NCBI RefSeq assembly: GCF_018413605.1
Contig: NZ_JAHCDN010000003.1
Coordinates: 248,001 to 312,000 of the forward strand
Origin: Variovorax sp. PCZ-1
Lineage (GTDB): Bacteria; Pseudomonadota; Gammaproteobacteria; Burkholderiales; Burkholderiaceae_C
Direction: 5' to 3'
DNA: 64,000 nucleotides
Part shown: positions 2,897 through 46,950 of the stretch, in pieces
How the letters are laid out: every line of letters begins with the position of its first letter
Position numbering within the stretch: the first letter of the stretch is position 1
Program-made: the position numbers and the translations under genes
Notes under the pieces: model-generated
What the model was told of the DNA's origin: nothing
The model's input: only the letters and a program-made list of their open reading frames with translations
Database searches by the model: none

Positions 2897-2903
2897 TTTT
2901 GAT

Positions 2904-2962
2904 GATCTTTTGAGCACTTCGCCGGCGTATTTGCTGCGCAGAGTGCTATTAAATTTGTAGTT
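2904..2962 (-). repeat. R element copy 1 (intergenic, inverted)
   Basis: Read on the minus strand it has the dyad segment around GTGCTATTAAATTTGTAG, then CTGCGC/GCGCAG, a 7-bp spacer and GCCGGC, with the spacing shared by all R elements. It sits 8 bp after the stop of the GspE-like gene. Confidence 0.85.
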
Positions 2963-2986
2963 TGATTATTTTTGGATGGAGTGGCT

Positions 2987-3072
2987 GCGCTTGGGCTACC
3001 TCCCTCCGCGACTGTCCCCCGCCGGCTTCGCCGGCTCCTCCTTTATGTCGCTGCGGGAGATAGCCCAAGCAC
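2987..3072 (+). repeat. P element copy 1, structured palindrome
   Basis: Outer arms GCTTGGGCTA and TAGCCCAAGC pair perfectly. Inside is a conserved asymmetric core (CTCCGCGACTGTCCCCCG on the left, CTCCTCCTTTA then TCGCTGCG on the right) around an inner GCCGGCTTCGCCGGC hairpin. Three other copies in the window keep the core but carry different stem sequences. Confidence 0.85.
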
Positions 3073-3138
3073 AGCCTGATGGCAGACTCGAGTTTTGCTT
3101 CATGGTGATACGATTGCCTCGTTAAGCGGAGATTTCGT

Positions 3139-4665
3139 ATGAAAAATGCACTCACATTCTGGACACCCAGCACCAAAAAATGGGCACTCAGCGCCATCGC
3201 TGCTGCTGCACTCATGGGCTGCGGCACGCAAACTGTGAATCCCGTCACTGGCCAGCAAGAGCGCTCGGTCATGAGCGAGGCTGATGAGGTGCGCGAAGGG
3301 GCGAAGGCGCATCAAGAAATTCTCAAAGAATACGGCGTGCTGAAAAACGATCGCATTCAAAACTATGTGAACGACATCGGCCAGCGCTTGGCCAAACTCT
3401 CGCACCGCAATCAGCTCAAGTGGACGTTCACCGTGCTGGATAGCCCGGAGATCAATGCGTTTGCGCTGCCGGGCGGCTATGTGTATATGACGCGCGGCAT
3501 CATGGCTTATTTGGATAGCGAGGCTGATCTGGCGGGCGTGATTGGTCATGAGATCGGGCATGTGACGGCGCGGCATGGTGCGCAGCGCGCAACGCGGCAG
3601 CAAGATGCGGCCTTGGTAGGTTTGCTGGGCAATGTGCTCGGCGCGGTGCTGGATGCCAAAGGCGGTGGCGGCATTGGTCAGCAAATCGGTGAAGTGGCTG
3701 GCATGGCTGCTGCGGGGCGCGTAGCCAAATATGGGCGTGAGCAAGAGTTGCAGGCGGATGGCTTGGGCGCTGAGTATTTGAGCCGGGTGAATTACGATCC
3801 GCGCAACATGATTGATGTGATCCGCGTGCTCAAAGATCAGGAGCGCTTTGCAGTTGAAGTCGCTCGTGCAGAAGGTCGGCCTGCGCCGCAAGGCGGCAAC
3901 TCCTGGCTGGCTTCGCATCCGAGCAACGATCAACGCTTGGAATCGATCAACAAAATCGCGGCTCAGTATCAGGCGAATAAAAACTATGCAGACGAAGGCC
4001 GCATACGTTATCTGCAAATCATCGATGGCATGGCCTTTGGCGAAAGCCCGGAGCAGGGGCTCACGCGTGGGCGAAATTTTTACCACTCCACTTTGAATTT
4101 TGCGATGACCGCGCCCACAGGTTGGCGGATTGTGAATGAAGAGGAGCAGCTGACCATTGTGAATCCTGCAGGCGATGCTGCGCTGATCGTACAGCTCGCA
4201 CCACCGAACGCGGGGCGAAACCATGAGGAGATCATTCGCAATGTCGTCAAGCCTGTTTCTGGCCGCGCGGAGCGCTACACGCTCAATGGTCTGCAAGCCA
4301 CGCACTTCAACGGCGCTGTGCAAGCGCAAGGCGGGCAGCGAGCTGTGGAGCTCACTGTAGCCACAGGAGCTGGTGGGCAAAACTTTTTGATGATCTACGC
4401 TGGCAAAGATGCAGCCACAGTGCAGCGCAACCGAAGCTTTCTGCGCGAGACCGAAGGCAGCTTCCGAGGCATGAGTGCGCAAGACACTGCAGCGGCGAAA
4501 CCGTGGGTGCTGCGCACAACAGCTTTGCCACGCGGTGGTTTTGCGGATTTAGCGCGAACTGCGCCGATGACGACGTTGCCTGAGCAGCAGCTCAAGCTCA
4601 TGAATGGTGTGTATTCCACGGGGACGGTGCAGCCTGGGGCATTGGTGAAGATGGTGGTGCAGTGA
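3139..4665 (+). CDS. M48 family metalloprotease, lipoprotein
   Basis: 508 residues. The N-terminus has a signal peptide ending in a lipobox (LMGC, Cys28), so the mature protein is probably lipid-anchored in the envelope. The zinc protease motif HEIGH is at 137-141 and a candidate third ligand, Glu203, lies in ELQADGLG, the usual ExxxD arrangement of M48 peptidases. The catalytic domain resembles BepA/YfgC-type periplasmic proteases of outer-membrane quality control. The C-terminal 200 residues do not look like the TPR repeats of BepA and contain an extra domain of unknown role. It stands alone, with P elements on both sides of the gene. Confidence 0.88.
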   Translation: MKNALTFWTPSTKKWALSAIAAAALMGCGTQTVNPVTGQQERSVMSEADEVREGAKAHQEILKEYGVLKNDRIQNYVNDIGQRLAKLSHRNQLKWTFTVLDSPEINAFALPGGYVYMTRGIMAYLDSEADLAGVIGHEIGHVTARHGAQRATRQQDAALVGLLGNVLGAVLDAKGGGGIGQQIGEVAGMAAAGRVAKYGREQELQADGLGAEYLSRVNYDPRNMIDVIRVLKDQERFAVEVARAEGRPAPQGGNSWLASHPSNDQRLESINKIAAQYQANKNYADEGRIRYLQIIDGMAFGESPEQGLTRGRNFYHSTLNFAMTAPTGWRIVNEEEQLTIVNPAGDAALIVQLAPPNAGRNHEEIIRNVVKPVSGRAERYTLNGLQATHFNGAVQAQGGQRAVELTVATGAGGQNFLMIYAGKDAATVQRNRSFLRETEGSFRGMSAQDTAAAKPWVLRTTALPRGGFADLARTAPMTTLPEQQLKLMNGVYSTGTVQPGALVKMVVQ

Positions 4666-4687
4666 GATTCGTTGTATCCGCAGGCTC

Positions 4688-4800
4688 GCACTAGCTGCAC
4701 GTTTTGCTCCGTGTCCCCCGGCGGCATTTGGTTTTATTCATTTTCGAAGGGTTGGTTTCGCCGCCTCCTCCTTTACCTGCGCAAAACGCACGGCTAGCGC
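4688..4800 (+). repeat. P element copy 2, structured palindrome
   Basis: Same core as the other P elements (GTGTCCCCCG, then CTCCTCCTTTA and CTGCG) but with entirely different outer arms: GCACTAGCTGCACGTTTTGC pairs with GCAAAACGCACGGCTAGCGC. The inner stem is GGCGGC/GCCGCC with a longer AT-rich loop. It fills most of the gap between the M48 gene and the convergent TPM gene. Confidence 0.8.
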
Positions 4801-4830
4801 AATCCTGCAAACGTAATAGCTCGCAGCTGA

Positions 4831-5355
4831 TTACCGCACATCAGGCCGATTGCTCAACTCGTTTGGATTGGCTGCGTTGGCATCCACAGGAAAGTGCTGC
4901 ATCAGCAGCGCAGAGATTTCTTCTAGCGCCTGCGTGAGCCCGCGTTCGAAATCGCCGCGTTTGAGGTGCGCGCTTAAATGATCGACTGTTTCTTGCCAAA
5001 AAGTGCTGTTCGGCGGCATAGATACAGCGCGATCAGCTACTATTTCTATAGCATTTTCGGCGAGTAAGAGATAGATCAATACGCCGTTGTTTTGCTGCGT
5101 GTCCCACACGCGGAGTTTGCCGAACATGGCGATGGCACGTTCGCGTGGCGTGGCATCGCGCCACAAATAGCTCATGGGCAGGCCTGCTTCGATGCAGATG
5201 CGGATTTCGCCGCTATGTCTTGCTTCGCTTGCCTGCGTGAAGCGCTCTAGCTTAGCGAGCAGCTCGGGCGGCACGGCGCGGCGCACATCGCTGTCGTCCA
5301 TCCAGCGGTGTTTCCAGATGCGGGTCAGTTTTCCGAAGAAGCTGCGCTGTTTCAT
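4831..5355 (-). CDS. TPM domain protein, cytosolic-type
   Basis: 174 residues from the ATG one base after the stop of the upstream ygcG-like gene; a longer frame upstream is only an alternative reading of that gene's glycine-rich tail. The protein contains one TPM (TLP18.3/Psb32/MOLO-1) domain, seen in SGEIRICIEAG, the acidic stretch around FGKLRVWDT, NNGVLIYLLLAE and IEIVADRAV. It lacks a signal peptide and the glycine-rich tail. TPM proteins occur with LemA and YgcG in a conserved membrane-associated cluster; roles in phosphatase activity or photosystem repair are known only for distant plant members. Function here is unknown. Confidence 0.82.
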   Translation of the reverse strand: MKQRSFFGKLTRIWKHRWMDDSDVRRAVPPELLAKLERFTQASEARHSGEIRICIEAGLPMSYLWRDATPRERAIAMFGKLRVWDTQQNNGVLIYLLLAENAIEIVADRAVSMPPNSTFWQETVDHLSAHLKRGDFERGLTQALEEISALLMQHFPVDANAANPNELSNRPDVR

Positions 5356-5356
5356 C

Positions 5357-6262
5357 TCAAAAATCTCCACTCGCGCCGCCGCCACCGAAATCACCCCCAC
5401 CGCCGGAGCTAAAACCCCCACCTCCGCCACTGCTCCAGCCGCCGCCACCGCCGGTTGACCAACCACCACCGTCGTAGCCGCGTGAATAACCACGCCTGCC
5501 ACTGACAGCTCTGCCAAAGCTGGTGATCAAGGTGAAGATCAGCGCGGCAAAGAAGGCGATGCCAGCTATCACCATACTCGCGGTGATGAAGAAGGCGATG
5601 CCGCCCACTGCGCCTCCTGTCACGAGGGAGCCGAGTTTGTTGCCGAAAATGCCTTTGGCTATTGCGCCGCCAATGGGCACAGCGAAGAAGAGGAAGATGA
5701 AGAAATCCATCCACTCAAAGCCGAGTTGTTGTGGATTGAAGCCGCGCTCGGCATTTGGGGCAGGGAGATTCTCAGCGCCGATGCGTTTATCCAGCGCCTC
5801 AATCGTGGCTTCAATGCCTTGAGCGTATTGCCCTGCTTTGAGTGCAGGTGCAAGCGAGGTGCTGATGATTTGCTTGGCGGCAAGATCAGGAATCGCACCT
5901 TCCAAAGATTTCGCCACTTCAATGCGCAGCTTGCGATCTTCCTTGGCGATCACGATGAGAACGCCGTCACCCACATCACGCCGCCCGATTTTCCAGGCGT
6001 TGGCTACGCGGTTGGCGTAGCTGGCGATGTCTTCAGGCGCTGTGGTGTTGACGAGCAGCACGGCGATCTGCGAGCCGCGCTCTTGTTCGATGCGTGCCAG
6101 CTGTGTTTCGATACTGCCAGCTTCGCCAGCGGAGAGAATTTGCGCGGTATCCACCACGCGGCCAGAGAGGGCAGGCACGGCTTGCTGCGAGAGCGCTGCA
6201 AACGGTGCGAGCAATGCGCCCGCGAGTAGCCAAGCTCTGAATAGGCGTCTAATTACTATCAA
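5357..6262 (-). CDS. YgcG family TPM-domain membrane protein
   Basis: 301 residues, beginning at TTG. No in-frame ATG precedes the signal peptide (cleavage probably near ALSQQ). A periplasmic TPM domain covers about residues 35-160 (GRVVDTAQILS, GSQIAVLLVNTT, GDGVLIVIAKEDRKLRIEV). One or two membrane segments follow at about 175-245, and the tail is glycine/serine-rich with runs of GGGGG. This is the standard YgcG architecture. It lies between lemA and a second TPM gene on the same strand, a conserved arrangement in proteobacteria. The predicted TTG and the purine stretch upstream both fall inside R element copy 2, so the repeat may supply the translation start. Confidence 0.85.
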   Translation of the reverse strand: MIVIRRLFRAWLLAGALLAPFAALSQQAVPALSGRVVDTAQILSAGEAGSIETQLARIEQERGSQIAVLLVNTTAPEDIASYANRVANAWKIGRRDVGDGVLIVIAKEDRKLRIEVAKSLEGAIPDLAAKQIISTSLAPALKAGQYAQGIEATIEALDKRIGAENLPAPNAERGFNPQQLGFEWMDFFIFLFFAVPIGGAIAKGIFGNKLGSLVTGGAVGGIAFFITASMVIAGIAFFAALIFTLITSFGRAVSGRRGYSRGYDGGGWSTGGGGGWSSGGGGGFSSGGGGDFGGGGASGDF

Positions 6263-6318
6263 TTAGTGAGCACTCCGCGCAGATTCTATGCCGGCGAATG
6301 GCTTAAAACGCTTAAAAA
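6255..6318 (+). repeat. R element copy 2 (overlaps ygcG start)
   Basis: ACTATCAATTAGTGAGC, 5 bp, GCGCAG, ATTCTAT, GCCGGC, then a GGCTTAAAACGCTTAAAAA tail. It fills the whole space between lemA and ygcG on the minus strand and includes the ygcG start codon. Confidence 0.9.
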
Positions 6319-6319
6319 T

Positions 6320-6913
6320 TTACTTCTTGTTGAAGTCTACCGTGGGCGCAGTGGTGATCTGCGCTTCGTTGGCGACCGTGAAGCCGGGCTTGGGCGAGTA
6401 GCTAAAAATCATTGCCGTGAGATTGCTCGGGAAGCTGCGTGCGAGCACGTTGTATTCCTCGATGGTTTTGATGTAGCGGTTGCGTGCGACGGTGATGCGG
6501 TTTTCTGTGCCTTCAAGCTGCACGCGCAGATCTTGGAAGCCTTGGTTGGCTTTCAAGTTGGGGTAGTTTTCCGTGACGACGAGCAGGCGAGAGAGCGCTG
6601 AGCCAATCTCACCTTGTGCCGCTTGAAATTTCTTCATGGCTTCAGGATCGTTCAGCATTTCTGGTGTCATTTGAATGCTGGTGGCCTTAGCGCGCGCCTC
6701 CACCACTTTCACCAGCGTCTCTTGTTCAAAGCCCGCTTCACCTTTGACGGTATTCACAATGTTCGGAATCAAATCAGCGCGGCGCTGGTACTGATTCAGC
6801 ACTTCGCTCCAAGCAGCTTTGGATTGCTCATCCAAGCGCTGGAAATCGTTGTAGCCGCAGCCTGTGAGCAAGGCGGTGCAGATCAGAAGGGCAGATAAAA
6901 GTAATTTTTTCAT
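6320..6913 (-). CDS. lemA: LemA family lipoprotein
   Basis: 197 residues from the ATG preceded by AGAGGAA; a much longer open frame upstream lacks any support. The signal peptide ends in a lipobox (LLTGC, Cys19). The LemA signature is clear: SEVLNQYQRRADLIPNIV, EARAKAT, GEIGSALSRLLVVTENYPNL and the YNVLARSFPSN segment near the end. LemA proteins are helical envelope proteins of uncertain function. It is the first gene of a minus-strand lemA-ygcG-TPM cluster. Confidence 0.93.
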   Translation of the reverse strand: MKKLLLSALLICTALLTGCGYNDFQRLDEQSKAAWSEVLNQYQRRADLIPNIVNTVKGEAGFEQETLVKVVEARAKATSIQMTPEMLNDPEAMKKFQAAQGEIGSALSRLLVVTENYPNLKANQGFQDLRVQLEGTENRITVARNRYIKTIEEYNVLARSFPSNLTAMIFSYSPKPGFTVANEAQITTAPTVDFNKK

Positions 6914-6964
6914 AGCGTTCCTCTTCGGTTTTGGGTGCACAGGTTCTAACAGTAGCATAGATGG

Positions 6965-7735
6965 ATGCAAGTTTCCCCATCTCAAGCCATTGCTGCGATT
7001 CAAAAGCCATCCCAAGCTACACCAAAGCAGCCAGATTTGCTGATTGCCGGCGCTACCGGCGTGCTCGGCAATACTGTGCTGCGTCGGCTCGTGGGAGTGC
7101 ATCGCTATGCGCATACGCAGGTGCTGGCGCGCGAGCGCGTGCAGCAGGGCATGCGCCAACTCTCTTTGCATTTGGTTGCAGGTGATATCGCGGGTTGGCC
7201 GGTCAATCTGTCGTCTGATGTTGCCGTGGTGATGTTTGAGCCGCCCAGAATGTTTTATGAGCGCGAGCGCGCTTTGTGGACGCCCGAGCCAGCTCAGCTC
7301 ACGGAGCTTGCCGCTTGGTTGTATGCGAGTGGCGCAAGCACATTGGCTGTGGTGTTGCCCTATGCGCAAGGCACACTGCCCGAATCGCTCAAGCAGGGCT
7401 TGGCCTCGCTGGATGAGCAGGCTTTGGCGGCGACGGGTTTTGAGCGACTGCTGATTTTTCGCAGCGCAGAAAAGCCCGCGGCTTTGCGTCACAAGCATCC
7501 ACTGGCCGCCCTCGCGCATTGGATGCTGGGCATCTTCAAATTCATGGTGCCTGCGCAAGAGCAGCCTGTACGCCCCACAAAAATTGCCGAAATCGTGGAT
7601 GCTTTCCTGCAAACCGCACCAAGCGGCATCACAGTGGTTTCGCAGCACGAGATGTGGGCGTTCTCGCAGATCAACTCAACAGATTTGTTGGCTGCCGTGA
7701 AAACCCGGTTTGACAATGCAAGAGAGATTAATTAA
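6965..7735 (+). CDS. NAD(P)-binding Rossmann-fold protein, function unknown
   Basis: 256 residues. After a 25-residue lead, LLIAGATGVLGNTVLRRL gives the GxxGxxG dinucleotide-binding motif of atypical short-chain dehydrogenases. The usual catalytic YxxxK is not evident, so it may be a non-catalytic or atypical NAD(P)-binding protein. It is divergent from lemA and ends 11 bp before hpaR, with the HpaR-type operator covering its stop codon. That spacing raises the possibility of co-transcription with hpaR. The start could also be an upstream in-frame codon; the first 20 residues are uncertain. Confidence 0.65.
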   Translation: MQVSPSQAIAAIQKPSQATPKQPDLLIAGATGVLGNTVLRRLVGVHRYAHTQVLARERVQQGMRQLSLHLVAGDIAGWPVNLSSDVAVVMFEPPRMFYERERALWTPEPAQLTELAAWLYASGASTLAVVLPYAQGTLPESLKQGLASLDEQALAATGFERLLIFRSAEKPAALRHKHPLAALAHWMLGIFKFMVPAQEQPVRPTKIAEIVDAFLQTAPSGITVVSQHEMWAFSQINSTDLLAAVKTRFDNAREIN

Positions 7736-7748
7736 CATGTTAACTAAT
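7727..7748. promoter_or_regulatory. Palindromic operator at hpaR (MarR-type)
   Basis: A near-perfect 22-bp palindrome with the perfect core TTAACATGTTAA flanked by ATTA and TAAT. It overlaps the stop of the preceding gene and the first two bases of the hpaR ATG. Size and symmetry fit a MarR-family dimer site. Autoregulation by HpaR is established in enterobacteria and inferred here. Confidence 0.7.
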
Positions 7749-8217
7749 GAATCCTTTTGCGCACCGCAACCTCCCCCGCCTACTGCTGCAAGCGCGCGAA
7801 ACCGTGCTGGAGCATTTCCGCCCTGGCTTACGTGAGCATAGCCTCACAGATCAGCAATGGCGCGTGCTGCGCGTGTTGGCTGAAGAGGGCGAATGCGATG
7901 TGAGCACAATTGCGCAAGGCGCGTTTTTGCTCGGCCCCAGTCTTTCGGGCGTGCTCACGCGCATGGAGCGCGATGGTTTGATTGTGAGAGCGGCTGATAG
8001 CCAGGATGCGCGCCGGCAAGTGATCCGTGCCAGCGCCAAAGGCAAGCGTTTGGTGGTCAAGCTTTCCGAATCGATCGAGGCGCATTACGCGCGCATGGAA
8101 ACGAGCTTGGGTAAAGCGCGCTTGCTGCAGCTCTATGCCCTGCTCGATGAAGTGATTGCCATGCCTGTGCCAGCTGCTGAGCCTTTGCCCACAGCGCGAA
8201 AGCGAGCCAAGCCATGA
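7747..8217 (+). CDS. hpaR: Homoprotocatechuate degradation repressor HpaR (MarR family)
   Basis: 156 residues with a winged-helix MarR domain: LTDQQWRVLRVLAEEG, LLGPSLSGVLTRMERDGLI and DARRQVI (the wing). The opening NLPRLLLQARE and the position directly before hpaG fit HpaR, the repressor of the 3,4-dihydroxyphenylacetate meta-cleavage genes, relieved by pathway substrates. The start codon lies in a 22-bp palindrome, probably its own operator. There is no good ribosome-binding site between the palindrome and the ATG, which may mean weak or coupled translation. Its stop overlaps the ATG of hpaG1 (ATGATG). Confidence 0.9.
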   Translation: MNPFAHRNLPRLLLQARETVLEHFRPGLREHSLTDQQWRVLRVLAEEGECDVSTIAQGAFLLGPSLSGVLTRMERDGLIVRAADSQDARRQVIRASAKGKRLVVKLSESIEAHYARMETSLGKARLLQLYALLDEVIAMPVPAAEPLPTARKRAKP

Positions 8218-8876
8218 TGCTCGCAACCGTCTATGGAAGTCTCATGCATCACAGCGCTGAGCTTCAAGCGCTGGGCGATGCAAGCTATGAAGCACCCTAC
8301 AACGCGCCACCCCATGCTCCGGTGCTCTACATCAAGCCAGCCAATACATTCAACCCGTTTGGCCAAGCGCTGCGCTTATCCGCTGCGCATGCGCCTATTC
8401 ACGCGCGCGCTTGCATAGGCTTGAATTATAGACCAAATCAGCCCGTCGCCGGCGTAGAAACTGCGCAAGATGCTATTAAAAATATAGTGATTGAAGATTG
8501 GCGAATTGCGTTGTTCTGCGATTTCAGTTTGCCCCACAGCAGCTTCTATCGGCCACCACTGCGCTTCAATGCGCTCGATGGCTCGCTGGGTTTGCCACAA
8601 GCCAGTGCATCGTGGTCTGAGAATGATTTGAAAGATCAACGTATCGAGACTTGGGTGAATGGCGTTTGTGCGCACAGGTATCAAACATCAGATTGGACAT
8701 GCTCGGCGCTGGAGCAATTGCAGCGGGTCGGTGAATTCATCGCCTGGGAAGCTGGCGATGTGCTCATGCTCGGCTGCCCACCCGATGCGCCGCTGGTGAA
8801 AGCGGGTGATGTGGTGGAAGCGCGCATGAATGGCCAAGTCCTCACGCGCACGGTGATCCTGCAGGAGGCCGCATGA
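8214..8876 (+). CDS. hpaG1: HpaG1: FAH-family isomerase/decarboxylase, N-terminal-half type
   Basis: 220 residues, corresponding to the first half of enterobacterial HpaG (5-oxopent-3-ene-1,2,5-tricarboxylate decarboxylase/HHDD isomerase). Matching segments include APVLYIKPANT, DFSLPHSSFYRPPLRFNALDG and WEAGDVLMLGCP. The region that in E. coli reads VALIVGK and onward is replaced by sequence encoded by R element copy 3, about residues 72-92 (AGVETAQDAIKN in its middle). The local length is about eight residues longer than in E. coli. The frame stays open, so the protein may be functional despite an altered core segment. It is coupled to hpaR upstream and hpaG2 downstream by 4-bp overlaps. Confidence 0.85.
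   Translation: MMLATVYGSLMHHSAELQALGDASYEAPYNAPPHAPVLYIKPANTFNPFGQALRLSAAHAPIHARACIGLNYRPNQPVAGVETAQDAIKNIVIEDWRIALFCDFSLPHSSFYRPPLRFNALDGSLGLPQASASWSENDLKDQRIETWVNGVCAHRYQTSDWTCSALEQLQRVGEFIAWEAGDVLMLGCPPDAPLVKAGDVVEARMNGQVLTRTVILQEAA
8423..8489 (-). repeat. R element copy 3, inside hpaG1
   Basis: GCCGGC, GTAGAAA, CTGCGC, AAGAT, GCTATTAAAAATATAGT: the exact 6-7-6-5-17 spacing read inverted. It encodes VAGVETAQDAIKNI in hpaG1 without breaking the frame. Confidence 0.9.
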
Positions 8877-9628
8877 AGCACGCCCGTGTGATTTACCAAG
8901 GCCGTGAGCACAGCGCGCAAGAGTCAGAAGGCATGCTCTTACTGTCTGATGGGCAACGCGTGCGCCAAGACGCGGTGCACTGGCTGCCACCGCTTGCACC
9001 TGTGGCGCAAGCACGCACCATCCTCTGCCTCGGCCTGAATTACGCCGATCACGCCAAAGAACTGGCCTTCAAACCGCCGAGCGAGCCGCTCGCCTTCCTC
9101 AAAGGCCAAAGCTCACTGATCGGTCACCGCGAGCACACCCTTCGCCCGCATGGCGTAAAGATGATGCATTACGAATGCGAGCTGGCCGTGGTGATCGGGC
9201 GCACAGCAAAAAACGTGAAGCAAGCCGATGCCTACGACTTCGTGCAGGGCTACACCATCGCCAACGATTACGCCATCCGCGACTATCTGGAAAACTGGTA
9301 TCGCCCCAATCTCCGCGTCAAAGGCCGCCCCACCTGCACACCACTCGGCCCGTGGCTCGTCGATGCGAAAGACATTGCTGATCCGATGCATTTGAATCTG
9401 CAAACCATCGTCAACGGCCAAATCACGCAACGCGGCAACACAAAAGACATGATCTTCAGCATCCCCGCGCTCATTGAATACTTCACCAGCTTCATGACCC
9501 TGCGCCCCGGCGATCTCATCCTCACGGGTACGCCCGATGGCGTGGTTGATTGCCAGCCAGGTGCGCAGATTGAGTGCAGCATTGAAGGCATTGGCTCATT
9601 GCAAAACACGATTGAAAGCACTTCATGA
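8873..9628 (+). CDS. hpaG2: HpaG2: 5-oxopent-3-ene-1,2,5-tricarboxylate decarboxylase / HHDD isomerase
   Basis: 251 residues, the fumarylacetoacetate-hydrolase-fold half that carries catalysis. LGLNYADHAKELAFKPPSEP, MMHYECELAVVIG (acidic metal ligands), NDYAIRDYLENWYRPNLRVKG and LILTGTPDGV all match the C-terminal half of enterobacterial HpaG. It decarboxylates OPET to 2-hydroxyhepta-2,4-diene-1,7-dioate (HHDD) and isomerises HHDD to the 2-oxo form. Overlap with hpaG1 and hpaE by ATGA on both sides indicates a tightly coupled operon. Separate hpaG1 and hpaG2 genes are common outside enterobacteria. Confidence 0.93.
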   Translation: MKHARVIYQGREHSAQESEGMLLLSDGQRVRQDAVHWLPPLAPVAQARTILCLGLNYADHAKELAFKPPSEPLAFLKGQSSLIGHREHTLRPHGVKMMHYECELAVVIGRTAKNVKQADAYDFVQGYTIANDYAIRDYLENWYRPNLRVKGRPTCTPLGPWLVDAKDIADPMHLNLQTIVNGQITQRGNTKDMIFSIPALIEYFTSFMTLRPGDLILTGTPDGVVDCQPGAQIECSIEGIGSLQNTIESTS

Positions 9629-11091
9629 TTTCTCATCTCATCAACGGCAAGCATACGACAAGTGCCGCAACATTTGAAACCATCAATCCTGCGACGCAAG
9701 AAGTATTGGCAGAGGTTGCAGCGGGTGGCGCACAAGAAGTGAATTCCGCAGTTGCCGCTGCCAAAGAAGCTTTCCCTAAATGGGCGGGCATGCCCGCCCC
9801 CGAGCGCGCCAAGCTGATTCGCAAGCTCGGTGATTTGATCGCCGCGCATGTGCCTGAGATTGCTCAGATGGAGACGAATGATTGCGGGCAAGTGATTGCG
9901 CAAACGGGCAAGCAGCTCATTCCGCGCGCCGCTGATAATTTTTATTATTTCGCGGAGATGTGTACGCGTGTGGATGGCCACACTTATCCCACGCCCACGC
10001 ATTTGAACTACACGCTGTTTCATCCCGTTGGCGTGTGCGCTTTGATCTCGCCTTGGAATGTGCCTTTCATGACGGCCACTTGGAAGGTTGCGCCTTGTTT
10101 GGCTTTTGGGAACACAGCCGTTCTCAAAATGAGCGAACTTTCACCGATGACGGCTTCTCGTCTGGGCGAGCTGGCACTCGAAGCCGGTATTCCGGCGGGC
10201 GTGCTCAACATCGTGCACGGCACAGGCAAAGAAGCGGGTGAGCCTTTGTGTGCGCACCCGGATGTGCGCGCGATTTCGTTCACTGGCTCAACAGCCACGG
10301 GCAACCGTATTGTGCAGAGTGCAGGTCTAAAAAAATTCAGCATGGAGCTGGGCGGTAAATCGCCATTTGTGATTTTTGAAGATGCGGATTTGGATCGTGC
10401 TTTAGATGCGGCTGTCTTTATGATCTTCTCTAACAATGGCGAGCGTTGCACAGCAGGTAGTCGGATCATCGTGCAGCAGAGTATTTATGCAGATTTTGCA
10501 CATAAGTTTGCAGAGCGAGCCAAGCGCATCACAGTGGGCGATCCGCTGGATGAGAAAACGATTGTGGGGCCGATGATTTCGCAAGCGCATTTGGCGAAGG
10601 TGCGTAGTTATATTGATCTGGGCTCGAAAGAGGGTGCGTCAATGCTTTGTGGAGGTATTGACATGCCGAGCTATGCGGCTGAGTTGCCTGAACGAGTGAA
10701 GCGTGGCAACTATGTTTGGCCTACGGTGTTTGCCGATGTCGATAACCGCATGAAGATCGCGCAAGACGAAATCTTTGGCCCTGTGGCTTGTTTGATTCCG
10801 TTTAAAGATGAAGCGGATGCAGTGCGCATTGCTAACGATACGCAGTATGGTTTGAGCAGCTATGTGTGGACAGAAAATCTTGGCCGCGCACATCGCGTGG
10901 CAGCTCAGATTGAAGCGGGGATGTGTTTTGTGAACAGCCAAAATGTGCGTGATTTGAGACAACCCTTTGGCGGCACAAAGGCCAGTGGCACAGGGCGCGA
11001 GGGTGGCACTTGGAGCTATGAGGTGTTTCTTGAGCCTAAGAATGTGGCGGTGTCGCTGGGTTCGCACCATATTCCTCATTGGGGTGTTTGA
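9625..11091 (+). CDS. hpaE: 5-carboxymethyl-2-hydroxymuconate semialdehyde dehydrogenase
   Basis: 488 residues, a full-length aldehyde dehydrogenase. The catalytic cysteine is in NNGERCTAGSR (Cys275) and the general base in MELGGKSP (Glu241); the NAD-binding FTGSTATG and the C-terminal FGGTKASGTGREGG are present. It oxidises the ring-cleavage product CHMS to 5-carboxymethyl-2-hydroxymuconate. Position after hpaG2 with a 4-bp overlap supports the specific assignment over a generic ALDH. The next 307 bp, before hpaD, hold two P elements facing each other and a degenerate R element. Confidence 0.93.
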   Translation: MISHLINGKHTTSAATFETINPATQEVLAEVAAGGAQEVNSAVAAAKEAFPKWAGMPAPERAKLIRKLGDLIAAHVPEIAQMETNDCGQVIAQTGKQLIPRAADNFYYFAEMCTRVDGHTYPTPTHLNYTLFHPVGVCALISPWNVPFMTATWKVAPCLAFGNTAVLKMSELSPMTASRLGELALEAGIPAGVLNIVHGTGKEAGEPLCAHPDVRAISFTGSTATGNRIVQSAGLKKFSMELGGKSPFVIFEDADLDRALDAAVFMIFSNNGERCTAGSRIIVQQSIYADFAHKFAERAKRITVGDPLDEKTIVGPMISQAHLAKVRSYIDLGSKEGASMLCGGIDMPSYAAELPERVKRGNYVWPTVFADVDNRMKIAQDEIFGPVACLIPFKDEADAVRIANDTQYGLSSYVWTENLGRAHRVAAQIEAGMCFVNSQNVRDLRQPFGGTKASGTGREGGTWSYEVFLEPKNVAVSLGSHHIPHWGV

Positions 11092-11137
11092 TGGTTTTGC
11101 CGCTTGCTTCTCTCAACCTTTGTCACAATCGCCGACG

Positions 11138-11223
11138 CTTGGGGTATCCCACTCCGCGAATGTCCTCCGGCTGGCGCTTCGCGCGTGCCTCCCCCTTTAT
11201 TTCGCTGCGTGGGATACCCCAAC
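11138..11223 (+). repeat. P element copy 3, structured palindrome
   Basis: Outer arms TTGGGGTATCCCAC and GTGGGATACCCCAA pair fully. The core CTCCGCGAATGTCC and CCCTTTATTTCGCTGCG is conserved, with an imperfect inner GC-rich stem. It lies between hpaE and hpaD, opposite in orientation to copy 4. Confidence 0.88.
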
Positions 11224-11245
11224 CCTCGGCTCAGGTGAGGAAGGT

Positions 11246-11277
11246 TGCATGCAGTCTGCGATCACTATTCAGTAGCG
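11246..11277 (-). repeat. Degenerate R element remnant
   Basis: AGTCTGCG followed by ACTATTCAGTAGC resembles the GCGCAG and 17-bp dyad parts of an inverted R element, but the spacer is short and GCCGGC is missing. It lies between the two P elements upstream of hpaD. Confidence 0.4.
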
Positions 11278-11285
11278 CACAAGAG

Positions 11286-11366
11286 GCAGCGGGCGTGAGC
11301 CGCAGCGAAATAAAGGAGGAGACGGCAAAGCCGGCGGGGGACATTCGCGGAGGCTCGCGCCCGCTG
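11286..11366 (-). repeat. P element copy 4, structured palindrome
   Basis: Inverted copy. Outer arms CAGCGGGCGTGAGCC and GGCTCGCGCCCGCTG pair but differ from copies 1-3. The core (CGCAGCGAAATAAAGGAGGA and GGGGGACATTCGCGGAG) is the reverse complement of the shared core. It ends 32 bp before hpaD. Confidence 0.88.
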
Positions 11367-11398
11367 ATTCTTGGGAGCGGAATAAAAAGGAGAGAACG

Positions 11399-12274
11399 AT
11401 GGGCAAACTAGCACTAGCCGCAAAAATCACCCATGTCCCCAGCATGTACCTCTGCGAATTTCCGGGGCCGAATTTTGGCAAGAGAGACGCAGCGATTGCG
11501 GGCCACAAAGAAATTGACAAGCGCTGCAGAGAAGCCGGCGTAGACACCATCGTCGTGCTCGATGTGCATTGGCAAGTCAACAGCGAATACCACCTTAACT
11601 GCGCACCACACTTCAAAGGCCTCTACACCAGCAACGAGCTGCCGCACTTTATTAAAAACATGCCGTATGAATACCATGGCAACCCAGAGCTTGGCCACGC
11701 GATTGCAGACATGGCCAATGAGATGGGCGTGAAATCCCGCGCGCATTCGGATACCTCGCTCGAGCTCGAATACGGCACGCTCGTGCCCATGCGCTACATG
11801 AATGCCGATCAGCATTACAAAGTGATTTGCGTGAGCGCTTGGTGCGATTGGCATGATCTGCGCGAGAGTCAGAAGTTTGGATTTGCGCTGCGTCGCGCTA
11901 TTGAAGAAAAATACGATGGCACAGTGGCTGTGTTTGCCAGCGGCAGCTTGAGCCATCACTTTGCAGACAACGGCAAAGCGCCAGAGTACGCCTTCAAGGT
12001 GTATGACGCATTCTTGGAGCAAATCGATTTGCGCGTCGTCGAACTCTGGGAAAGAGGCGAACATCGAGCTGTGGTCGATATGCTGCCCATGTATGCGGAT
12101 AAATGCTGGGGCGAAGGCGATATGCACGATACCGCGATGCTCTATGGCGTGGTCGGTGGTGCATTTGAGAATTTTCACTACCAAGAAAAAGTGGAAGTGA
12201 TCACACCGTATTTCGGCTCCAGCGGCACGGGGCAGATCAACGCGATTTTTCCTGTCGTGCCTTTAATGAAATGA
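11399..12274 (+). CDS. hpaD: 3,4-dihydroxyphenylacetate 2,3-dioxygenase (class III extradiol)
   Basis: 291 residues, LigB-type extradiol dioxygenase. Likely iron ligands are His12 (KITHVP), His57 (VLDVHW) and Glu239 (WGEGDMHD); SGSLSHHF carries the second-sphere histidines. It cleaves homoprotocatechuate to 5-carboxymethyl-2-hydroxymuconate semialdehyde, the step before HpaE. A strong AAGGAGA ribosome-binding site precedes the ATG. Two palindromic P elements separate it from hpaE, so its message level may be set independently of the upstream genes. Confidence 0.94.
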   Translation: MGKLALAAKITHVPSMYLCEFPGPNFGKRDAAIAGHKEIDKRCREAGVDTIVVLDVHWQVNSEYHLNCAPHFKGLYTSNELPHFIKNMPYEYHGNPELGHAIADMANEMGVKSRAHSDTSLELEYGTLVPMRYMNADQHYKVICVSAWCDWHDLRESQKFGFALRRAIEEKYDGTVAVFASGSLSHHFADNGKAPEYAFKVYDAFLEQIDLRVVELWERGEHRAVVDMLPMYADKCWGEGDMHDTAMLYGVVGGAFENFHYQEKVEVITPYFGSSGTGQINAIFPVVPLMK

Positions 12275-46831: not shown

Positions 46832-46950
46832 TGCGGTGTCCAATCAAAAACGTCCTGAAGATCAGGGTGGTCAGCACTTGGACGGGACACCGTCTATCTT
46901 CGCAAAGATTCGGGAGGCTGTGAGTCCCGATGAAGAAAGTATAGCTGCGT

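Follow-up and report, generated by a model that had tools for sequence, protein, structure and literature searches.

Four palindromes (P1 to P4) lie at positions 2,987 to 11,366 of the stretch of DNA analyzed here, 64,000 nucleotides of Variovorax sp. PCZ-1 (contig NZ_JAHCDN010000003.1, positions 248,001 to 312,000; referred to as the window). Our results suggested that they were copies of a miniature mobile element similar to REPINs, which are doublets of repetitive extragenic palindromic (REP) sequences, and that the hairpins might serve as end signals that are read as folded single-stranded DNA (ssDNA). We gave this reading a probability of roughly 60%. The usual unit of the element was two large hairpins in inverted orientation, and the shape of the two facing hairpins was kept while much of the sequence changed.

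An earlier note on this DNA had described four palindromes with a conserved core, unrelated outer arms, and compensating stem changes, and had proposed a selected structure with an RNA-binding or processing function. All four palindromes were real. P1 (2983 to 3076, plus strand, which is the strand reading TGTCC...CTCCTTTA) and P2 (about 4688 to 4801, plus strand) were singles. P3 (11114 to 11247, inner part 11139 to 11222, plus strand) and P4 (11275 to 11378, minus strand) formed the left and right halves of one doublet, with P4 inverted relative to P3. The doublet was located in the 307-bp interval between the hpaE stop and the hpaD start (11092 to 11398). An inverted-repeat search returned only P1, P3, and P4; P2, which had a different arm type and a long inner loop, was recognized by reading and by model R1, whose 31 training rows included P2. 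The R1 matches were located at C3:250985-251075 (+), C3:252684-252805 (+), C3:259133-259229 (+), and C3:259281-259371 (-) for P1 to P4, respectively. P2 was flanked by an M48-peptidase-like gene (profile match below cut-off) and a convergent gene.

Read on the TGTCC strand, the palindromes shared a plan that consisted of an outer stem, a 3x3 loop (TCC/TGC), a 5-bp stem, a large internal loop (TGTCCYCC versus CTCCYCCTTTAT), and an inner hairpin. P1 contained these parts in this order; P2 lacked the 5-bp GCGA/TTCGCTGCG portion, so the core was not complete in all four as had been claimed. Similarly, the arms were only partly unrelated: P2 and P4 had other types, but P1 and P3 shared the GCGCTTGGG... 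type, which was the commonest in the PCZ-1 genome. The DNA-fold z-scores of P1 to P4 were -7.0, -0.4, -5.3, and -4.2; thus, P2 was not unusual as a DNA fold. The corresponding RNA-fold z-scores were -8.2, -2.1, -6.5, and -5.4 for the pyrimidine strand and -8.5, -2.8, -6.7, and -5.5 for the purine strand.

Covariation in the stems was far above that of the controls. In alignment A1 (31 rows), 22 of the 29 pairs had double changes (shuffled mean, 14.2), in 115 cells (shuffled mean, 26.6); none of 500 shuffles reached either value, and slid structures yielded 16 to 25 cells. Alignment A2 (119 rows from many species), which was fitted to the model and was therefore biased towards it, contained 999 double-changed cells versus 279.6 in shuffled alignments and 140 to 211 in slid structures. 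Additional pair types in A2 were not above shuffles (448/500). These results bore out the claim of covariation in the earlier note. Its proposal that selection maintains a structure whose internal loop is conserved also held, and the double changes, the mismatch asymmetry described below, and the inverted doublets placed it on firmer ground than four copies could.

Mismatches in the outer stem were strongly asymmetric. On the pyrimidine strand, A.C/C.A mismatches outnumbered G.T/T.G mismatches by 56 to 8 in A1, by 175 to 12 in A2 (rows, 91 versus 5, with 23 equal), and by 149 to 9 in 95 distinct Variovorax rows (rows, 83 versus 3, with 9 equal), all of these being simple counts from related copies that are not independent. 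A2 also contained 130 C.T/T.C mismatches, 91 of them in columns 30-31, where many species deviate from the structure. Because A.C on the pyrimidine strand reads as G.T or G.U on the complementary purine strand, it is the purine strand whose fold is kept, and selection thus acts on the folded purine-rich strand (ATAAAGGRGGAG / GGRGGACA). The most conserved part of the palindrome was the loop and not the stem. The two variable loop positions were CT in 219, TC in 56, TT in 14, CC in 6, and other combinations in 10 of the 305 distinct copies; on the purine strand, A.G or G.A was far commoner than A.A or G.G.

It is possible, but in our judgment unlikely, that the palindrome instead represents a structured, purine-strand RNA (with a regulatory, processing, or ribozyme-like role) that mobile DNA has spread, in which case the A.G/G.A exchange in the loop and the tolerance of G.U would reflect RNA tertiary structure. 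A conserved loop with variable stems, the mismatch asymmetry, and the loop exchange are all in line with this explanation, as is the lower RNA fold energy of the purine strand in all four palindromes. However, G.T wobble is tolerated in ssDNA hairpins too, and a transcript of an inverted doublet, in either direction, would contain one purine and one pyrimidine hairpin. Furthermore, a search of the whole window against Rfam 15 at the gathering cut-off returned only a chrB-b RNA outside the palindromes, and no match up to E<=1 was found in 2900-11450. Thus, the suggested RNA-binding or processing function gained no specific support. Because the copies were insertions, were mostly inverted doublets, and had no Rfam match, we favored mobile DNA, with ssDNA as the likelier substrate.

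The exact core pattern occurred 30 times in the PCZ-1 genome (3.54 Mb), versus 0 times for the reversed pattern. R1 matched 51 places in this genome at E<=1 and 48 at E<=1e-4, with P1 to P4 accounting for four of the 48, and the copies were arranged as 17 doublets and 17 singles (17/51 copies single). The sister genome (G001) contained 85 copies, Variovorax sp. DXTD-1 contained 91, Variovorax sp. Root411 contained at least 150, and genomes G013 and G022 contained 17 and 21, respectively. When 279 copies in 11 genomes were examined, neighbors less than 400 bp apart were in the order "+ then -" in 76/76 cases. The same order was found in 50/55 cases among 182 copies at 119 named loci (a set with a slight overlap with the 11 genomes), bringing the pooled figure to 126 of 131 close neighbors. 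A looser regular-expression set yielded 67 "+-", 3 "++", 1 "--", and 1 "-+" among neighbors less than 700 bp apart. The gaps within the 76 doublets ranged from 41 to 317 bp and were mostly about 40-155 bp (71/76 were below 155 bp). The two halves of a doublet were frequently of differing arm type, which would fit the left and right ends of one unit.

A comparison of orthologous sites indicated that the copies were insertions. We identified hpaE (TIGR02299) and hpaD (TIGR02298) with curated models, both above cut-off, and hpaE was present in 11 of the 36 genomes searched. The doublet separated hpaE from hpaD in the PCZ-1 genome (G000) and in G001. The hpaD start was located 1-17 nt past hpaE in G011, G013, G015, and G016 and 51 nt past it in G044; the sequence downstream of hpaE was different in G007, G014, and G020, and that of G021 was cut there. 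Because the two genes were only 1-17 nt apart in four relatives, we concluded that the P3/P4 doublet was an insertion. The second site was the interval that separates a probable paaK gene, whose product has an AMP-binding_C_2 domain, from a degP-like gene (profile match below cut-off). This interval was 57 bp in G000 versus 3.7 kb in G001, and most of the 3.7 kb was a unit bounded by two palindromes. In G002, a 1-kb unit adjoined the same degP-like gene; the contig stopped just past the second palindrome, so that only one side of the unit was seen.

The ends of the units were sought in Variovorax only, using 60 stretches from two genomes, in which 53 units were located. Of the 53, 35 had TTCRGGG at the left end and CCCYGAA at the right end. 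At the insertion point, direct repeats of 4 nt or more were absent from all 35 of these units, and one unit had a repeat of 3 nt. At the main variable position in the first seven end letters, the combinations were G-C in 16, A-T in 11, A-C in 5, and G-T in 3 units. We also considered flanking palindromes as targets, since the outermost flanks looked paired by eye, and we dropped this idea because the real flanks of the 35 units paired less than swapped flanks (13.7 versus 15.3). A mixed set of 65 doublets had a small excess of flank pairing (26.8 versus 22.6), which was partly due to the arms themselves.

Some hairpin pairs enclosed genes. Six "+-" gaps were longer than 600 bp; "-+" and "++" gaps of 1.3-4.1 kb numbered 3 each. 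The unit in G001:C97 contained genes for TumE (PF20126, 2.6e-16), a helix-turn-helix (HTH) protein, and PD-Lambda-2 A, B, and C (PADLOC, 9e-15, 1e-130, and 8e-38), and the G002 unit contained TumE (1e-16) and HTH genes; hence, the G001 and G002 units at the same degP-like gene differed in content. The gap in G007:C40 contained an AAA/ORC-CDC6-like gene and an unassigned gene, the gap in G022:C14 contained a DUF2306 gene, and the gap in G007:C34 contained open reading frames of unclear identity. A gap of 4098 bp in G011:C101 contained a DNA helicase Rep-like gene and was probably due to chance. We rejected a general role in carrying defense genes: in 200 genomes of the family, 27 of the 28 TumE loci had no palindrome nearby, and only G001 had one. 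Since TumE was not bounded by palindromes elsewhere, we limited the cargo claim to one site in one genus, where the cargo was real; elsewhere the evidence was suggestive. Cargo such as PD-Lambda-2/TumE was rare. The palindromes of L172 and L193 enclosed ordinary host genes, and a 290-residue protein of L092 had no family match. A HEPN cargo at L181 was also rejected, as the Pfam match (E 0.02) was below cut-off, NCBIfam had none, and the single-sequence structure model (mean pLDDT, a per-residue confidence score, of 43) was not used.

In integron attC sites, one arm contains an RYYYAAC box and the opposite arm a GTTRRRY box, and inverted recombination sites are expected to invert DNA and not to excise it. 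The hairpins could be attC-like recombination sites, with one strand folded and a tyrosine recombinase that gains and loses cassettes such as PD-Lambda-2/TumE; the one-strand fold, the structure kept over sequence, and the different cargo in G001 and G002 at the same degP-like gene agree with this. Folding of one strand that outweighs sequence and genes that can sit between sites are likenesses to attC (PMC2727003). However, attC-type boxes in both arms were found in just one of the 372 copies (none in the reversed control), the pairs were inverted, the internal loop was conserved, and most of the gaps between halves left no room for cargo, making this explanation very improbable. We thought it just as improbable that the palindromes are passive inverted repeats (terminators or cruciforms) whose arms stay perfectly matched through template switching, with no selection for one strand. 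Repeats of that kind typically lie between genes and have long arms, but under a symmetric process A.C and G.T mismatches should be equally frequent (175 versus 12 and 149 versus 9 were seen), the loop was conserved more than the stem, and close neighbors were nearly always inverted.

We also compared the element with known systems. REPINs are REP doublets associated with RAYT (REP-associated tyrosine) or TnpA_REP transposases (PMC3116915, PMC8266576, PMC6006769). Like REPINs, the element consisted of high-copy intergenic palindromes that form single-strand hairpins, appeared to be non-autonomous, and had the inverted doublet as its unit. Its hairpins were roughly 80-120 nt long with a large conserved internal loop, whereas REPs are 20-40 bp (PMC3733652), and its halves were often of unlike arm type. 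REP hairpins adjoin a GTAG or GTGG tag (PMC6006769). In contrast, GT[AG]G was not enriched in the 45-nt 5' flank of the hairpin, occurring in 71/372 copies versus 127/372 for the reversed control on the purine-strand hairpin and in 110 versus 192 on the pyrimidine strand. TIRtrons, with their TIRYT transposases, include the self-complementary repeats of Stenotrophomonas maltophilia ORF 1152 and have the motif GGGGWSAS (PMC3733652, PMC6006769). This motif resembles the element core GGRGGACA, and the element also occurred in Stenotrophomonas; as raw counts, GGGGWSAS was exact in 88/372 copies and GGNGGACA[GT] was present in 306/372. Unlike TIRtrons, the copies studied had no TIRYT gene beside them and did not flank one. 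The element and the ORF 1152 repeats, compared by description and not by letters, may be related.

Miniature inverted-repeat transposable elements of DDE insertion sequences are short and multi-copy, and they have end inverted repeats and a target-site duplication. In Variovorax, the element shared all of these properties but the last, for which the 35 units provided no example of 4 nt or more, and its conservation lay in internal palindromes. Because GTAG enrichment, a linked Y1 gene, target-site duplication, and an Rfam match were not found, we did not file the element as a REP, TIRtron, attC site, or known RNA. No paper describing it was found in the literature searched, which excluded figures and most subscription papers, so an earlier description may exist.

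In the proposed mechanism, a transposase supplied in trans, putatively of the HUH/Y1 type or another structure-reading kind, would recognize the purine-strand hairpins at both ends as folded ssDNA and would move the unit without a target-site duplication. Genes between the hairpins would sometimes be carried along, and P1, P2, and other single palindromes would represent half copies or copies that have decayed. One-strand folding, inverted doublets, the lack of target duplication, and a high copy number fit single-stranded intermediates, and movement via such intermediates has been proposed for REPINs (PMC3116915, PMC8266576).

Several results weigh against a mobile element of this kind. No transposition event was seen, near-identical strains not being among the genomes compared. 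No linked transposase was found either: the DNA surrounding 30 Y1 loci, which were part of the Y1 matches, had no element match and hence no Y1 gene flanked by the repeat, Variovorax hosts such as Root411 and DXTD-1 not being covered by that search. G013 and G022 had no Y1_Tnp match despite their copies, and when the Y1 profile was run over all loci, only L187 had both a Y1 gene and a palindrome, about 4.7 kb apart. Exceptions to the doublet order were 5 of the 55 neighbor pairs in the named loci ("++" in L134, L197, and L215; "-+" in L157 and L174), and "++-" triplets were present in G339 (G339:C98) and L197. The expression used to find the unit ends demanded the letters TTCRGGG/CCCYGAA, and 18 of the 53 units failed it; the end pairing over 11 positions was matched by 9/500 shuffles, which is only a modest excess.

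Two candidate movers were rejected. A Y1/RAYT parent was set aside for now because there was no linkage; the sole Y1_Tnp match of the PCZ-1 genome (L031, 1159-1866, minus strand, G000:C2) was flanked by AATTAATTGGGGTCAGA repeats instead of the element. These AATTAATTGGGGTCAGA inverted repeats fit the TIRYT motif GGGGWSAS. The other candidate was IS110. Four contig ends of G013 (C16, C20, and both of C34; L254, L245, L246, and L247) shared a tail that began at the start of the right palindrome, and the L245 tail matched the end of an IS110 family transposase (NF033542, E 9.5e-5, 28 residues, below cut-off; no Pfam match). We read this tail as an IS110 element and not as the mover, which suggests that IS110 elements use the palindrome as a target. 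Loss of the enzyme after spread or an enzyme of another class would each fit these results.

A bolder and quite tentative proposal is that the element represents a separate class. In such a class, the only signal would be a pair of covarying hairpins whose purine internal loop is conserved, and the enzyme that reads the folded strand would be something other than a linked Y1 transposase or an integron integrase. The doublet could surround anti-phage or toxin-antitoxin genes and carry them to new sites, the PD-Lambda-2 and TumE unit of the sister genome being an example. Under the REPIN-like reading, this is a mobile DNA family whose folded strand can be identified by sequence comparison alone, and it shows a route by which RNA-like covariation arises in mobile DNA. 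Many natural compensated variants are on hand for binding or cleavage assays, and high-copy hosts such as Variovorax are a place to look for the enzyme. If the cargo units move, they would be small defense-gene carriers without a transposase of their own.

The occurrence of the element was patchy, with copies in 14 of 60 genomes (PCZ-1 included). A scan of named genomes yielded at least 119 stretches with the element; the 80 listed were mostly from Burkholderiales (Variovorax, Rhodoferax, Hydrogenophaga, Ramlibacter, Rubrivivax, and others), and Stenotrophomonas and Lysobacteraceae were also among them. In a class-wide sample that scored only 11 candidates per genome, copies were found in 4 of 369 genomes, namely PCZ-1, one more genome of its family, and two of another family. 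Three large Variovorax replicons with the element were found among plasmid records, and the phage records searched had no match. Viral contigs yielded four stretches; the model fit L241 and L244 but not L242 and L243. The palindromes of L241 (450-550, plus strand) and L244 (7348-7433, minus strand) lay on the same 42,780-base IMG/VR contig, which contained genes for phage tails and heads that looked Mu-like by eye. Copies in records labeled Bacillus subtilis SK7B5 (L157 and L185) were probably contamination from another bacterium. In L193, a palindrome (5005-5081) was located within an open frame (4285-5775) whose CobB match (NF002204) was still above cut-off; the frame was uninterrupted across the palindrome and resembled in-frame palindromic insertions. 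Elsewhere in the window, the chrB-b cis-regulatory RNA (Rfam RF03086, 43.5 bits) was located at 46871-46930 on the minus strand.

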